From the NCBI GenBank assembly GCA_937870635.1, contig CALMZP010000118.1:1-64000 (forward strand): a DNA stretch of 64,000 bases, given 5' to 3'. Positions 8,587 to 63,779 of the stretch are shown in pieces (position 1 is the stretch's first letter; each line of letters opens with the position of its first letter). The position numbers were made by a program, and so were the translations under genes. The notes beneath the pieces were generated by a model. That model was not told the DNA's origin. It did no database searches and saw only the letters and a program-made list of their open reading frames with translations. The DNA is from an uncultured Acidobacteriota bacterium. Its GTDB lineage: Bacteria; Acidobacteriota; Thermoanaerobaculia; Gp7-AA8.

Positions 8587-8661
8587 GATTTTGGATTTTG
8601 GATTTTGGATTTTGGATTGAGATTCCGGAGCAATCCAAAATCCAAAATCCAAAATCCAAAA
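8587..8661. repeat. Inverted GGATTTT heptad arrays between convergent genes
   Basis: The left arm is ggatttt units at 8587-8619 and the right arm is the inverse at 8631-8661, with a ~11-nt spacer. It sits between convergent thpR and rlmN, where a long A/T-rich hairpin could act as a bidirectional terminator. The same unit recurs at 34385, 35329 and 61755. Confidence 0.88.
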
Positions 8662-34386: not shown

Positions 34387-34417
34387 AATCCAAAATCCAA
34401 AATCAAAAATCCAAAAT
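34385..34417. repeat. GGATTTT heptad array at the holA start codon
   Basis: A single-arm array in minus-strand GGATTTT units; the holA TTG start is at its end. Its A/T-rich, unstructured character makes it the de facto leader of holA. Confidence 0.8.
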
Positions 34418-34423
34418 AGAAAA

Positions 34424-35328: not shown

Positions 35329-35403
35329 ATTTTGGATTTTGGATTTTGGATTTTGGATTTAGACGGACTTCAATCCAAAATCCAAAATCGCAAATCCAAA
35401 ATT
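35329..35403. repeat. Inverted GGATTTT heptad arrays at the rlmH start
   Basis: The left arm (35329-35359) touches the rlmH start codon; the right arm (35371-35403) nearly reaches the stop of the regulator gene. Inverted arms flank a ~11-nt spacer. The unit is the same as at 8587, 34385 and 61755. Confidence 0.88.
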
Positions 35404-57489: not shown

Positions 57490-59595
57490 ATGAAAGTCTA
57501 CTCTGGAAACGAGATCCGTAACGTCGCGCTGGCAGGTCACAACGATACCGGCAAGACCACCCTGGTCTCCCAGCTCCTGTTCAACTCCGGCGGCGTCACG
57601 CGGCTCGGCCGCATCGAGGACGGCACCACCGTCACCGATTTCGACCCGGATGAGATCGAGCGCAAGCACTCCATTTCCGCCGCGATCGCGTTCGCGGAAT
57701 GGAAAGACACGAAGATCAACCTCCTGGATACCCCCGGCTTCGGGATTTTCCTCATGGAAACCCGCACCTCGATGCGCGTCGCCGATGCCGCCGCGATCGT
57801 CGTCAGCGCCGTGACCGGCGTAGAAGTGACAACCGAGAAGGTCTGGAAGTTCGCCGACGAGTTCAACCTCCCCCGCCTCGTGATCGCCAACAAGATGGAC
57901 CGGGAGCGGGCCTCCTTCTCCCGCACACTCGACGCCCTGCAGAAGAAGTTCGGGAAGAACGTCGTCCCCATTCAGATCCCGATGGGCGAAGAGAAGGACT
58001 TCTCGGGGATCATCGATCTCATCTCCATGAAGGCCTACCGTTACCCGGCCGACACGTCCGGAAAAGTCGAGATCGCGGACATCCCGGCCGAGTACAAGGA
58101 CGAAGCTGCCCAGTGGCGCGAGAAACTGATCGAGAAGGTCGCTGAGGGCGACGACAAGCTCATGGAGAAGTTCTTCGATCAGGGAGGCCTCTCTCAGGAA
58201 GATCTCGTCGACGGCCTGAGGCGCGAAGTCCTCCACCATCAGATTTACCCGATGCTCCTCACCTCGGCTTCCCACAACGTCGGCGGACACGCCGTTCTCG
58301 ATGCCTTCGTGTCCCTCCTGCCGGCTGCAGACGAAGTGAAAACGATCGAAGGAAAAGACAAGAAAGGCGAGGCCATCACGTTCGACCGCCGGGCCGAAGC
58401 TTTCCCCGGGGCACTCGTTTTCAAGACTTTCTCGGACCCCTTCTCCGGACGGGTGTCACTCTTCCGCGTGTTCAGCGGCACATTGAAATCCGACGCCACC
58501 TACTGGAACGCGTCGCGCGATCACGAGGAGCGCGTCGGCAAGCTCCAGCTCCTTCAGGGCAAGCAGCAAAGCCCCGTCTCAGAGTTGAAAGCGGGCGACA
58601 TCGGCGCCGTCGCCAAGCTCAAGGACGTGCACACGGGCGACACGCTCTCCGCCAGGGACCACGTCATCACCTTCCCCTTCGTCACCTACCCGGAGCCGGC
58701 CATATCCTTTGCATTGGAAGCCAAGGCCCGCGGCGACGAAGACAAGCTCGGGACGGCGATCGCCCGCATCGTGGAGGAAGATCCAACGATCAAGTTCGGC
58801 CGCGACGAGCAGACCAAAGAGCTCCTCATCAGCGGTCAGGGACAGCTTCACGTCGAGATCGTCGTCTCGAAGCTCAAGAAGAAATACGGCGTCGATGTGA
58901 TCCTGCATCCGCCGAAGGTTCCGTATCGCGAGACGATCACGCGCGCGTCCGATGCGCACGGGCGGCACAAAAAGCAGTCCGGCGGCCACGGCCAGTTCGC
59001 CGACTGCAAGATCACGATGGAGCCGCTGCCGCGCGGTGCTGATTTCGAATTCGTGGACGAGATCTTCGGAGGCGCGATTCCGCGTCAGTACATCCCCGCC
59101 GTCGAGAAAGGCATTCAGGAAGCGCGCGTGAAGGGCTATCTGGCCGGATTTCCGGTCGTCGACTTCCGCGTCCGCCTCAAGGACGGCCAGTATCACGACG
59201 TCGACTCCTCGGAAATGGCGTTCAAGATCGCCGGCTCGCTCGCGTTCCAGCAGGGCATGGAGCAGGGCAAGCCGACGCTCCTCGAGCCGATCATGCACGT
59301 GGACATCACCGCCCCCGGCGAGTACATCGGCGCCCTCACCGGCGACCTGACCTCACGTCGCGGAAAGATGGAAGGCGTCGATGCTGAGGCTGACGGAGAC
59401 TCGCAGACATTGAAAGCGCGCGTACCGCTCGCCGAGATGCTCACGTACGGCTCGACGCTCCGGTCGATCACTCAGGGCCGCGGCACGTTCCACATGGAGT
59501 ACTCGCACTACGAAGAAGTGCCGCGCAACCTGCAGGAGAAGATCATCGCCGAGTCGAAGAAGGCGAAGGAAGCCGCGCAGGCAGCACACCACTGA
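57490..59595 (+). CDS. EF-G paralogue (FusA2/spdEFG2-like) lacking the catalytic histidine
   Basis: The 701-residue GTPase has all EF-G domains. G1 reads GHNDTGKTTL, G3 reads LDTPGFG and G4 reads NKMD. In translocating EF-G the DTPGH histidine positions catalytic water; here it is Phe. That, and overall sequence, fits the second EF-G group (spdEFG2) rather than the main factor. Domain IV is intact (PPKVPYRETI; HKKQSGGHGQFADCKI) and domain V carries LEPIMHVDITAPGEYIGALT. Probable roles are recycling or stress translation. Confidence 0.9.
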   Translation: MKVYSGNEIRNVALAGHNDTGKTTLVSQLLFNSGGVTRLGRIEDGTTVTDFDPDEIERKHSISAAIAFAEWKDTKINLLDTPGFGIFLMETRTSMRVADAAAIVVSAVTGVEVTTEKVWKFADEFNLPRLVIANKMDRERASFSRTLDALQKKFGKNVVPIQIPMGEEKDFSGIIDLISMKAYRYPADTSGKVEIADIPAEYKDEAAQWREKLIEKVAEGDDKLMEKFFDQGGLSQEDLVDGLRREVLHHQIYPMLLTSASHNVGGHAVLDAFVSLLPAADEVKTIEGKDKKGEAITFDRRAEAFPGALVFKTFSDPFSGRVSLFRVFSGTLKSDATYWNASRDHEERVGKLQLLQGKQQSPVSELKAGDIGAVAKLKDVHTGDTLSARDHVITFPFVTYPEPAISFALEAKARGDEDKLGTAIARIVEEDPTIKFGRDEQTKELLISGQGQLHVEIVVSKLKKKYGVDVILHPPKVPYRETITRASDAHGRHKKQSGGHGQFADCKITMEPLPRGADFEFVDEIFGGAIPRQYIPAVEKGIQEARVKGYLAGFPVVDFRVRLKDGQYHDVDSSEMAFKIAGSLAFQQGMEQGKPTLLEPIMHVDITAPGEYIGALTGDLTSRRGKMEGVDAEADGDSQTLKARVPLAEMLTYGSTLRSITQGRGTFHMEYSHYEEVPRNLQEKIIAESKKAKEAAQAAHH

Positions 59596-59626
59596 CCGTT
59601 AACCGTTAACGGTTAACGGTTAACGG
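59595..59626. repeat. GGTTAAC array, self-inverting, providing a stop codon
   Basis: Two CCGTTAA units face two TTAACGG units across a GTTAAC centre. On the minus strand it supplies the last residues (PLTVNR) and the TAA stop of the PEGA protein; the plus-strand EF-G stop is just outside. Confidence 0.88.
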
Positions 59627-60199
59627 CTGAAGCTTCACGTCGATGTGCACGATGTCGCGCTCCGCGTCGTCGGCTGCGGTCACGACGAAGTGGCGCTGCT
59701 GAAAGCCGGGGGCGACGATCTTCACGTCATAGCTTCCCGCCGCCGCGAAGTCGTACACCTCATCCTCGGAATCGAACTGTTTTGCCTGGCCGACGGCGAC
59801 GTCATTCACATAGACGACGGCGTCGGGGGGGCTCGACGTGATGAGCATTCCGCGCCGCGCGTTCATCCGGACGACGGCGTTCACGCCCTCCGGTCCGCCT
59901 TCGATCGTGGCGCGGGTCTCACCTTCGTACGGCGCGTTCGCCGGCGGCACGTTCGCACCCGCGTCACCGGGGAAGACGAGCGACGCGCCGGGCTCCGGCT
60001 CGCCGGGTGGCCCCCCCGAGCTGCGGCGCGCTTCAGACTGCGGACGAATGATGTTGACCAGGGTGTTGTCGCGATACCGCAGCCCGGTGATCACCGCCAG
60101 CGCGGCAAGCGATACGAGCACCGCTCCGATCGCGATCGGCACCCACCGGGGCATGACCGGAGCGCTCGGCTCCTGCTCGGGCGGTGGCAATTCGCTCAT
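59606..60199 (-). CDS. PEGA-domain membrane protein
   Basis: The 197-residue protein has a short cytoplasmic N-terminus, one membrane helix (WVPIAIGAVLVSLAALAVIT), a Pro/Gly-rich linker and a C-terminal PEGA domain (GMLITSSPPDAVVYVNDVAV; AAGSYDVKIVAPGFQQRHF). PEGA domains occur in surface-layer and kinase-associated proteins. The C-terminal PLTVNR and the stop are encoded by the GGTTAAC array. ATG 60199 overlaps the DUF2007 gene by ATGA. Confidence 0.85.
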   Translation of the reverse strand: MSELPPPEQEPSAPVMPRWVPIAIGAVLVSLAALAVITGLRYRDNTLVNIIRPQSEARRSSGGPPGEPEPGASLVFPGDAGANVPPANAPYEGETRATIEGGPEGVNAVVRMNARRGMLITSSPPDAVVYVNDVAVGQAKQFDSEDEVYDFAAAGSYDVKIVAPGFQQRHFVVTAADDAERDIVHIDVKLQPLTVNR

Positions 60200-60570
60200 T
60201 GCTCTGGTTCAGTCTCTGCAGACGCCGAATCGTCGATGTCCGCGGGGCCCTCATCGGTGACGACGGTCTCGGTGTCATCGTCGAGGCGTTCGTACGCGCG
60301 CTCGCGCTGCCGCAGGAGTGCCTGCGCGCGCTGTTCATCCTGCTGTCCTACGTAGATGCGAATATCGCCCATCGTGCCGAAGTTGATCGGCTCCATCGAG
60401 AATTTTACGTTCTCGATCTGCGCAGGAATCCCCTCGGCTTCAAGAAATCCGCGAAGCAGCGTGGCCTCATCCTCCGTGCCAGTGCTGGCGATCTCGATCC
60501 ATGTGACGTTCTCACCTTCGACGGTCTGAACGTTCTCCTGATCGACCGGGGGGCGGGCTTCGTCTGCCAT
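60196..60570 (-). CDS. DUF2007 domain protein
   Basis: The 124-residue protein has an N-terminal DUF2007 (putative signal-transducing, PII-like) domain: ATLLRGFLEAEGIPAQIENV and then DIRIYVGQQDEQRAQALLRQ. The acidic tail is disordered. Function unknown. It lies between selD and the PEGA protein in one leftward string, 12 bp after the selD stop. Confidence 0.85.
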   Translation of the reverse strand: MADEARPPVDQENVQTVEGENVTWIEIASTGTEDEATLLRGFLEAEGIPAQIENVKFSMEPINFGTMGDIRIYVGQQDEQRAQALLRQRERAYERLDDDTETVVTDEGPADIDDSASAETEPEQ

Positions 60571-60582
60571 TGTGCAATCTCC

Positions 60583-61653
60583 TCACGGGACGAGGCTGAT
60601 GAGTCCGCTCTCGTCCATCATCCTTCCAACCTTTGCACAGAACAGGCCGCCTTCGGTGGCGGCGCGCTCGAACGCCGCAGCACGTTCCGGGGCCATGGCG
60701 ATCAGCAGCCCGCCGCTCGTCTGCGCATCACACATCAATATGTATTCGGATTCCGAAACGGTCACCTTCACATGCGGGCGAAACGTCTCCGCGTTGCGCA
60801 CGGTGCCCCCTGGTCGATGTCCCCGCGCCAGATAATCGCGCGCGCCGTCGAGAACCGGAACCGCGCCGGCGCGGATCTCCGCGCCGAGACCGGCGCCGTC
60901 GCACATCTCACGCAGGTGGCCGACGAGACCATAACCGGTGATGTCGGTGGCAGCGCTGGCACCCGCTTCGACCATGATCGCCGCCGCGTCGCGGTTGAGC
61001 GCCATCATCCACTCGATCGCCTGATCGAGCGAAGGGGCGCCGCGTTTCAACAGACGGCTCTTCGTTCGCGCGCGATACGCGCTGACGAGAATCCCGTTGC
61101 CGATCGGTTTCGTCAGATAGAGGAAATCGCCGGCCTTTGCGGTCGAGTTGCGGACCAGGCGATCGACCGCGACGATGCCTGTGACCGCGAGGCCGTATTT
61201 CGGCACATCGTCGATGATCGTGTGCCCGCCGCCGATGGGAAACCCCGCCTCGGCGGCTTTCGCTGCGCCGCCGCGCAGAATCTCCTCGAGCGTCGACAGC
61301 GGCAGTTTGTCGGTCGGGAAGCCGGCAATGGCTAGACCCAGGATCGGGCGCGCGCCCATCGCGTAGACGTCGGAGACGGAGTTCGCCGCGGCGATCGCAC
61401 CGAACACGTACGGATCGTCGACGATCGGCGTGAAGAAATCGACGGTCTGGACGATCGCCTGATCGCCGCTGATTCGAAGAACCGCCGCGTCGTCCGCGGT
61501 TCTCGTTCCGACAAGAAGATCCCCCAGCCCTTCGTTCGAAGGGAGTTTCGAGAGCACGGAGCGCAGGTCATCCTGACCCAGCTTGCAGGCTCAACCGCCG
61601 GTGGTCGCAAACGACGACAACGCGGGGTAACTGGTGTGGAGCTTGTGCTTCAC
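60583..61653 (-). CDS. selD: Selenide, water dikinase, itself a selenoprotein (in-frame UGA at the active site)
   Basis: SelD makes selenophosphate for selenocysteine. The frame from GTG 61653 reads MKHKLHTSYPALSSFATTGG, then a TGA (61591-61593), then ACKLGQDDLRSVL and on without a break through GLGDLLVGTRTADDAAVLRI, MGARPILGLAIAGFP, GGGHTIIDDVPKYGLAVTG and ATDITGYGLVGHLREM. The UGA stands where E. coli has catalytic Cys17, three residues before the conserved Lys. It is therefore read as Sec21. A SECIS-like hairpin lies just downstream. An ATG-only call would miss ~33 residues, including the active site. Confidence 0.9.
61566..61593 (-). promoter_or_regulatory. Bacterial SECIS-like element
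   Basis: Twelve nt after the UGA the transcript can form GGUCA-GGA-UGACC, extendable by two wobble pairs. The apical loop begins with G about 17 nt from the UGA, within the accepted range for bacterial SECIS elements. Not folded computationally. Confidence 0.65.
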
Positions 61654-61678
61654 GGCGGGGAGTTTACTGCGAGATGGG

Positions 61679-61787
61679 ACTGGACCTTGGACCTTGGACC
61701 TTGGATCTTGACCTTGGATCTTGGATCTTGGAGTTTGGATCTTGGATTGATTCAAATCCAAAATCCAAAATCGCAAATCCAAAATCC
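61679..61787. repeat. Heptad arrays GACCTTG / GATTTTG, mixed inverted pair
   Basis: A long left arm (61679-61750) drifts from GACCTTG to GATCTTG, and the right arm (61755-61787) is the inverse GGATTTT type. One arm thus shows unit-to-unit change toward the sequence of the other. Confidence 0.85.
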
Positions 61788-61790
61788 CCA

Positions 61791-62072
61791 TCACGACGGT
61801 TTGATAACCGGTTCGCCGAGGACTGTGGCGCGGGCGGTTTCGCAGGCGGCGAGGATCTCCTGATACACGTTGAAGGCGAGCTCGGGATTGAGCGGCTCGG
61901 GTGCGTTTTTCGCGACGATCGCCGCGATCTGCGATGCGTAGTGAGAGGCCACCGGAAGGCGCTCGCCGGAATCGCGGATCATGCGGAAGCCAACCGAGAG
62001 CTCGTTCTCGAGCTCCTGGCGGAACGTGCCGGTGACGATATCGTTCTCGAGCGATTCGTAATTGACGTTCAT
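61791..62072 (-). CDS. Small uncharacterised protein
   Basis: The 93-residue product (ATG 62072) is probably all helical: YESLENDIVTGTFRQELENE, SVGFRMIRDSGERLPVASHY, VYQEILAACETARATV. No family recognised. It overlaps the upstream peptidase gene by ATGA and ends at the repeat array. Confidence 0.7.
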   Translation of the reverse strand: MNVNYESLENDIVTGTFRQELENELSVGFRMIRDSGERLPVASHYASQIAAIVAKNAPEPLNPELAFNVYQEILAACETARATVLGEPVIKPS

Positions 62073-63232
62073 CGGAGAAAGCGTTCCATCAGCTCGCGGT
62101 CTGCGCCGTACGCGACACGCACATCCTTTCCCTTCTGCGTGTGGAGGAAACCGATGTCCCTGTTGTCGAGAAACGTTGTGTACGCCTTCGCGAACCTCTC
62201 CGCCGCCGCCTCGGACTCCCACGACGTCTCGACGAGGACCGTCGGGATGCACGCCGCGTCGTGCGCGATCGTCACGCGGTCGGACATCCACCCGCGCGCA
62301 TTCTCTTTTCCGGCGAGAAAACCCCAATGGAACTCTCCGAGGTGCTCGACGCTGATGGTGGGAACCGGAAAGGGCGGCTTCGGTATGAATGTCTCCGGGG
62401 TGAAGCGCCCCTCGAAGTAATCGTCCGGATGCAGCAGCTCCCGCGTGGACCGCGGAGGATTGCTGTGAACGCGGTCGATCGCTTTCCAGCCGCCGCGGCG
62501 GTAGGCCTCGATCACGAAGCTCAAGCCCTGGAGATAAGGAAACTTCAGCGACTCGGCGAAATATCGGGGGGTGGAGGGATCGACGGTCATGTCGGCGCTG
62601 GCAGCTGACGCGAGCAGGCCGTCGAACATCGGCTGACGGACCAGCGTGTCGAAGTCGGCGCCGCTCTGTCCGATGAGGTACGCGAGCATCACCAGCGTCG
62701 CTTCACCCTCGAGGACCGAATGGTAGGCGAGGCTGCCGTCGGTATCTTTCTGAAGTGACAGCGCGCGGCGCCCGATCGCGTGATGCTGATCCTGCAGGGC
62801 GTGCACGAGCTCGTGGACGATGACTCCATCTGCCGTGGCGAGGCCACCGGGAAGATTCTGCAGGGCGGGGGGAGGTTCGGCGAGCGCGTAGTACGTGCGG
62901 GTGTCGGGATCGTAGTAAGCGAGCACCTGCGCTTCGTAAAGATCGATGAGCCTGTCGAACGGGTTGCCCGGGCCCTTCTCGATGAGGAGCAGCGCCTCGA
63001 GGATGCCCGCCCACTCGTCGATCGAGTACGGGAGGGTCCTGGTGAGCTGGTTCCGGAGGCGGTCGGGCAACTCGGCCCGGTCGATCGTTACGGACCGGAC
63101 CGGTTCCCGGAAGGTCAGACCGCGGATGCTCTCCACCGCTTCCATCTGCCGCTGGAGATCCGCCCCCGCAGCGGCAGAGACGGCTACGAAAAGGAAGGAA
63201 AGGAGGGCAACGGTGGCGGAAACCCGCGACAT
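62069..63232 (-). CDS. Secreted zinc metallopeptidase (HEXXH)
   Basis: The 387-residue protein has a signal peptide (TVALLSFLFVAVSAAAG) and a zincin motif HELVHALQDQH near residue 145, with a likely third ligand glutamate in VLEGEATLVM. The upstream DLYEAQVLAYYDPDTRTYYA block matches a bacterial family usually annotated as hypothetical or DUF-type peptidase. It is probably periplasmic. The downstream overlapping gene may be a small partner. Substrate unknown. Confidence 0.8.
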   Translation of the reverse strand: MSRVSATVALLSFLFVAVSAAAGADLQRQMEAVESIRGLTFREPVRSVTIDRAELPDRLRNQLTRTLPYSIDEWAGILEALLLIEKGPGNPFDRLIDLYEAQVLAYYDPDTRTYYALAEPPPALQNLPGGLATADGVIVHELVHALQDQHHAIGRRALSLQKDTDGSLAYHSVLEGEATLVMLAYLIGQSGADFDTLVRQPMFDGLLASAASADMTVDPSTPRYFAESLKFPYLQGLSFVIEAYRRGGWKAIDRVHSNPPRSTRELLHPDDYFEGRFTPETFIPKPPFPVPTISVEHLGEFHWGFLAGKENARGWMSDRVTIAHDAACIPTVLVETSWESEAAAERFAKAYTTFLDNRDIGFLHTQKGKDVRVAYGADRELMERFLR

Positions 63233-63308
63233 GGGCTGCTCAACGGGAGGCGGGAGGCGCCGATTCCTCCGGCGGCCAGTTTCCTGATCCCGGCGACTTT
63301 CACTTAGA

Positions 63309-63779
63309 ATGCCGCTCGTTCAACCGATGGAACGTGGCGAAAGCGAGCGGATCGAGATCACTATCAGCAGCCGCTTCGAAAATATCGAACTTGTTCAGGT
63401 GATCGCAGAACACCTGTGCGAGAACGCGGGAGTTGATGAGGACGGATCCCACTGGGTAGGAATGGCCGTTCGCGAAGCGGTGGCGAACGCAATTAAGCAC
63501 GGGAACAAACTAGACATACGGAAAAAGGTCAACGCGACGTTCGATCTTCGCGGGTCAGAGCTCGAGATCACCGTCTCCGACGAGGGAGCGGGATTCGATC
63601 CGGCGAATGTCAGCGACCCGTTGAACCCCCAGAACCTGATGAAGACCAGCGGTCGCGGGATCTTCTACATGAAAACCTTCATGGACCGGGTCGACTATTC
63701 GTTTCATCCGAACGGCGGGACGTCACTGGTCATGACCAAGAATCTGGCAGCGCAGCAGGGAATCGCAAAAAGTTCATAA
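63309..63779 (+). CDS. RsbW-like ATP-binding anti-sigma kinase
   Basis: The 156-residue GHKL protein has an N-box (VREAVANAIKHGN), G1 (DEGAGFDP) and G2 (SGRGIFYMKTFMDRV) motifs of RsbW/SpoIIAB-type anti-sigma factors, which phosphorylate a STAS antagonist. ATG 63309 is taken; ATG 63327 (MERGESERIEIT) is a possible internal start. The STAS gene follows 36 bp downstream, completing a partner-switch. Confidence 0.87.
   Translation: MPLVQPMERGESERIEITISSRFENIELVQVIAEHLCENAGVDEDGSHWVGMAVREAVANAIKHGNKLDIRKKVNATFDLRGSELEITVSDEGAGFDPANVSDPLNPQNLMKTSGRGIFYMKTFMDRVDYSFHPNGGTSLVMTKNLAAQQGIAKSS

Follow-up and report, generated by a model that had tools for sequence, protein, structure and literature searches.

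A selenoprotein gene for selenophosphate synthetase, with a conserved in-frame UGA and adjoining hairpin, predicted in an acidobacterium of the class Thermoanaerobaculia

The window considered here (the whole stretch of 64,000 nucleotides from an uncultured acidobacterium of the Thermoanaerobaculia) carries a selD-like reading frame which is interrupted by a TGA close to its 5' end, and the question is whether this codon ends a protein or is read as selenocysteine (Sec). The first-pass annotation had taken the frame for a selenoprotein gene with the UGA at the catalytic position (GGUACK). Our comparison upholds this reading, and, as judged from sequence comparison, the locus almost certainly encodes selenophosphate synthetase (SelD) as a selenoprotein of the ordinary bacterial kind in a soil-type acidobacterium. 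The genome holding the window (G000) is a metagenome-type assembly of 4.52 Mb with 98.7% completeness and 2.98% contamination, and its nearest named relatives are metagenome genomes of Thermoanaerobaculia or group-7 Acidobacteria. The features on which the argument is built are collected in Table 1.

Table 1. Positions of the selD features in the window and of related genes elsewhere in genome G000
Feature	Location	Strand	Remarks
selD coding sequence	window 60583..61653	-	GTG start, 356 residues, Sec at residue 21, TGA stop at 60583-60585
GTG start codon	window 61651..61653	-	homologous GTG or ATG in all relatives
TAAACT, -10-like (TANNNT) box	window 61661..61666	-	spaced 7 nt from the GTG; probably the promoter of a leaderless transcript
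UGA codon read as Sec (predicted), residue 21	window 61591..61593	-	opposite E. coli Cys17; TGA in 17/18 family genomes
Bacterial SECIS hairpin (predicted), GGUCA-GGA-UGACC	window 61566..61578	-	stem of 5 bp, apical loop GGA of 3 nt, 17 nt from UGA to loop
selA	G000:C110		404 bits, with Se-cys_synth_N
selB	G000:C19		full-length, 629 aa, 349.7 bits; GTPase, SelB beta-barrel, C-terminal winged helix SelB-wing_3
tRNA-Sec (L010)	G000:C108		anticodon UCA, 71 bits against a gathering score of 47
SelW-like CGVU protein (L170)	G000:C57:3023-3226	+	conserved as Sec in relatives
Candidate Sec peroxiredoxin (L189)	G000:C54:4086-4475	+	FYPLDWTPVU
Candidate Sec PrxQ/BCP-like peroxiredoxin (L190)	G000:C148:9323-9694	-	FYPKAGTSGU

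The frame obtained by reading through the UGA matched the SelD profile TIGR00476 over residues 12-324 (E=1.7e-112, 375.7 bits against a cut-off of 125) and E. coli SelD (PDB 3u0o) with E=1.3e-74, and it is the only strong SelD match in the genome. In the alignment with 3u0o, U21 stands opposite Cys17 ('LTQYSHGAGCGCK' in E. coli and 'LSSFATTGGUACK' here), and the N-terminal active-site motif of Cys/Sec and Lys is present, with GGUACK opposite AGCGCK. Orthologues within the family are 61-74% identical across nearly the whole SelD length, and all of them are read through a UGA except one Cys form. Codon 21 is thus TGA in 17 of the 18 family genomes, G000 included, and TGC in the remaining one (G010); TGA also occupies the Sec codon of selD in a genome of the same order (G018) and in several other families of the class.

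Under standard translation the protein does end at the UGA and is followed by an open reading frame of 324 residues initiated at GTG 61557, as would be expected if the codon were a true stop, arising from pseudogene formation, from a sequencing error or with a restart that yields a protein lacking the active site. A sequencing error at the TGA is contradicted by the same codon in 16 other genomes of the family. Moreover, the frame 5' of the UGA is conserved (P-x-LSSFAT[T/S]GG), the wobble positions 3' of it are frozen and the genome encodes the Sec machinery; the comparison already refutes a true stop, to which we give practically no weight. With the UGA read as Sec, the consequences for annotation are the ones foreseen in the first pass. 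No in-frame ATG occurs before codon 99 (61359), so an ATG-only call drops about 98 residues, U21 and Lys24 among them; where GTG is admitted too, the call can start at codon 33, the next GTG after the UGA, and U21 and Lys24 are still missed. Plain open reading frame calling recovered only the 324-residue product. Automatic annotation of the selD, SelW-like and peroxiredoxin genes is therefore liable to truncation or splitting at the UGA.

A SECIS-like hairpin had also been claimed to follow the UGA, and a stem of five base pairs was found there. When a single sequence is folded, its energy is unexceptional against shuffled sequences. A 43-nt segment folded with -16 kcal/mol (z=-0.95, 28 of 200 shuffles being as good), and a 61-nt segment gave z=+0.64. 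An Rfam scan of the window returned two tRNAs only and no match to a SECIS family. The published rule for bacterial SECIS elements asks for a loop of 3-9 nt, a stem of at least 4 bp, a G in the first two loop positions, a spacing of 16-37 nt and a minimum free energy of -7.5 kcal/mol or lower (PMC13188914), and GGUCA-GGA-UGACC falls within it, with its spacing of 17 nt and the energy of the 43-nt segment. We read the hairpin as the SECIS element, and as more than a chance structure, because of the comparative evidence from conservation, pairing and covariation rather than because of folding energy. Codons 26-29 (GGT CAG GAT GAC) are identical in all 17 Sec selD genes of the family, and where a residue is invariant, codon identity averages 0.85 over codons 22-30 and 0.54 downstream of them (p=4e-5; 100,000 permutations, 17 Sec genes). 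In an alignment of 15 rows, 93.3% of the cells are paired, against 15-47% when the pairing is slid along, and the changes covary, with double replacements of A-U by C-G and of G-C by A-U at pairs 20-24 and 16-28. Over a wider set, the five pairs are formed to 91% in 39 distinct Sec selD genes and to 47% in 56 Cys genes, a comparison which is supportive rather than decisive, as the 39 genes include other phyla, maybe with a different and more downstream hairpin.

Nature provides a control for SECIS function in the Cys orthologue of G010. This gene is set among the same neighbouring genes as the Sec genes of the family and carries TGC at the Sec codon, its peptide (CACKLGQDDL) being otherwise identical downstream. 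Its codons, however, read GCA TGC AAG CTG GGG CAG GAC GAT CTC, and owing to synonymous changes among the last five of them the hairpin cannot form. The same genome retains SelB, tRNA-Sec and a Sec-containing SelW-like gene; therefore SelD has passed there from Sec to Cys while Sec decoding was kept, the SECIS element decaying alongside. This control bears on the view that the bases after the UGA are conserved through protein constraint or codon bias and form no SECIS element. Strict conservation of the ACKLGQDDL peptide does fix most of these bases, yet four of the five relevant wobble bases are changed in the Cys orthologue with the same peptide. GGT makes up only 6 of the 38 Gly codons further down selD, and outside the hairpin region selD also employs alternative codons for Gly, Asp and Leu. 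Other invariant residues lack such conservation as well, fully identical codons amounting to 56% over codons 22-30 and to 4.5% elsewhere, and the four outer pairs are all formed in none of the 56 Cys selD genes. Protein constraint or codon bias without a SECIS element is accordingly very improbable, and selection on a SECIS hairpin is the preferred explanation.

Decoding of the UGA as Sec also depends on the rest of the genome, for which SelA, SelB and tRNA-Sec had been postulated. A search for selA, selB and selC found all three in G000, at the scores listed in Table 1. The remaining, lower-scoring matches to RF01852 were rejected as ordinary tRNAs for Ser, Leu, Cys, Tyr and Gly. Since selA, selB, selC and selD lie on different contigs, their joint presence rests on the binning, and this is backed by the recurrence of the same set in most relatives: SelB was found in 17 of the 18 family genomes, and 12 of the 18 gave a high-scoring tRNA-Sec match (near 70 bits); those near 50 bits may represent serine tRNAs. 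The gene, its kept UGA and hairpin, the Cys control and the three machinery genes are thus read from the sequences themselves. From these we infer Sec insertion, SelB binding and enzyme activity as follows. SelB carrying Sec-tRNA-Sec(UCA) would bind the hairpin just 3' of the UGA, whereby Sec would be inserted as residue 21 in the place of the catalytic Cys; together with the nearby Lys it would enable SelD to convert selenide, with ATP, into selenophosphate. This product would then be used by SelA to charge tRNA-Sec, which in turn would supply SelD itself, the SelW-like protein and the Sec-peroxiredoxins.

An in-frame UGA that is read through might equally be expected if UGA were reassigned genome-wide to another amino acid, or if a near-cognate tRNA read it without a SECIS element. 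Against this, selD and several SelW-like genes, including that of G000, terminate in UGA, the genome has tRNA-Sec (UCA), SelA and SelB, the only replacement within the family, Cys, coincides with loss of the hairpin, and UGA was not seen at many non-Cys positions. We consider such reassignment or readthrough exceedingly unlikely, and Sec remains the reading adopted.

More selenoproteins had been thought probable, and the family-by-family search gave at least three candidates in G000 beyond SelD, namely the SelW-like CxxU protein and two peroxiredoxins. The SelW-like gene was found in 16 of the 18 family genomes, with TGA in all 16, and its SECIS hairpin (GCC TCC AGT CTG GCG) is nearly frozen across the family genes. 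In both peroxiredoxins the UGA falls at the peroxidatic position: it is aligned with a Cys in peroxiredoxins whose structures are known, and its context agrees with the PxxxTxxU motif. The hairpins of SelD and of the SelW-like gene have in common a 3-nt apical loop with G first and closed by A-U, and the formate dehydrogenase hairpins of relatives look alike; this likeness would be expected if one SelB reads all of them. The same search found no Sec formate dehydrogenase, YbbB or YqeB in G000, where the molybdopterin-enzyme matches were rejected as Sec formate dehydrogenase for want of a TGA. Relatives (L154, L156, L158, L160 and similar) possess an open frame of about 1030-1130 aa resembling Sec formate dehydrogenase, with one TGA in [VI]UH[GS], which was not found in G000 as searched.

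At its 5' end the frame had been described as open to a GTG, and this start was found exactly at the position given. It cannot lie further 5', because an in-frame stop occurs a few codons upstream in at least eight relatives. A TANNNT box precedes the selD start by 6-8 nt at 19 of 19 family and order loci, none of them with a Shine-Dalgarno sequence, and is found upstream of all six stand-alone selD loci examined from further families of the class; the rows in both counts are related, so that their independence is overstated, yet the bases further upstream are not conserved. The local background of TANNNT is 0.27% per position, or about 1% for the four allowed positions, and a comparable box precedes only 1 of the 44 open reading frames of the window. 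In Acidobacteria 10-19% of genes are reported to be leaderless, their signature being a TANNNT about 12 bp 5' of the start (PMC3160421), and the selD locus shows this pattern of a -10 box directly 5' of the start and no Shine-Dalgarno sequence. From the box abutting the start we infer that the selD mRNA of G000 is probably leaderless, most likely beginning at or next to the GTG. The box abuts the start across families, including stand-alone Cys forms, and it is reasonably likely, though far from certain, that leaderless selD is class-wide and that initiation at a 5'-terminal GUG or AUG is an old, selected trait.

In comparison to the known Sec-SelD proteins (Zhang et al. 2006, PMC1794560; Mariotti et al. 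2015, PMC4561486) nothing essential differs: Sec occupies the position of E. coli Cys17, a bacterial SECIS element lies immediately 3' and the full SelA/SelB/SelC set is present, the likely loop of this clade being placed 17 nt after the UGA. By inspection, a longer hairpin (around GGCUCAGGUUCUGAGCC) is found further downstream in many selD genes of other phyla, unlike in this clade. E. coli SelD (3u0o) is homologous over nearly its whole length and has the N-terminal Cys/Sec and Lys motif in common with the G000 protein, whereas it has Cys in place of Sec. Among prokaryotic selenoprotein families Sec-SelD ranks second in breadth of distribution (PMC13188914), and the present selD is a further example of a well-known gene type for which the evidence is unusually clean. 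According to a proposal of Zhang et al. (PMC1794560), it is Sec-SelD that maintains the Sec trait in genomes lacking Sec-FdhA, in most cases together with the use of selenouridine; G000 fits the first half of this proposal, YbbB not having been found. No mention of Thermoanaerobaculia was found in the selenoprotein literature examined, and the locus provides clean comparative evidence for Sec decoding in this class.

Another form of SelD, with Cys and fused behind a cysteine-desulfurase-like domain (L038, L064, L069 and others), occurs in other families of the class and in other phyla and was not found in G000; it has a SelD domain in common with the G000 type, here with an ACKLRPQ motif, and differs from that type in the fusion and in the Cys. 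Some genomes of the class (e.g. G027, G036, G057 and G060) have a long-frame Cys-SelD plus a second SelD with an in-frame TGA. Around selD, the order HATPase, ORF of 387 aa, ORF of 93 aa, selD, DUF2007, PEGA and EF-G-like gene (57490-63779 of the window) is largely kept in about a dozen relatives of the family. The window also contains tandem repeats of the heptamer TTGGATT (24 matches against 0.16 expected) at 61686-61790, 8591-8659, 34387-34421 and 35332-35399, mostly as two inverted blocks, one set lying between selD and the ORF upstream of it.
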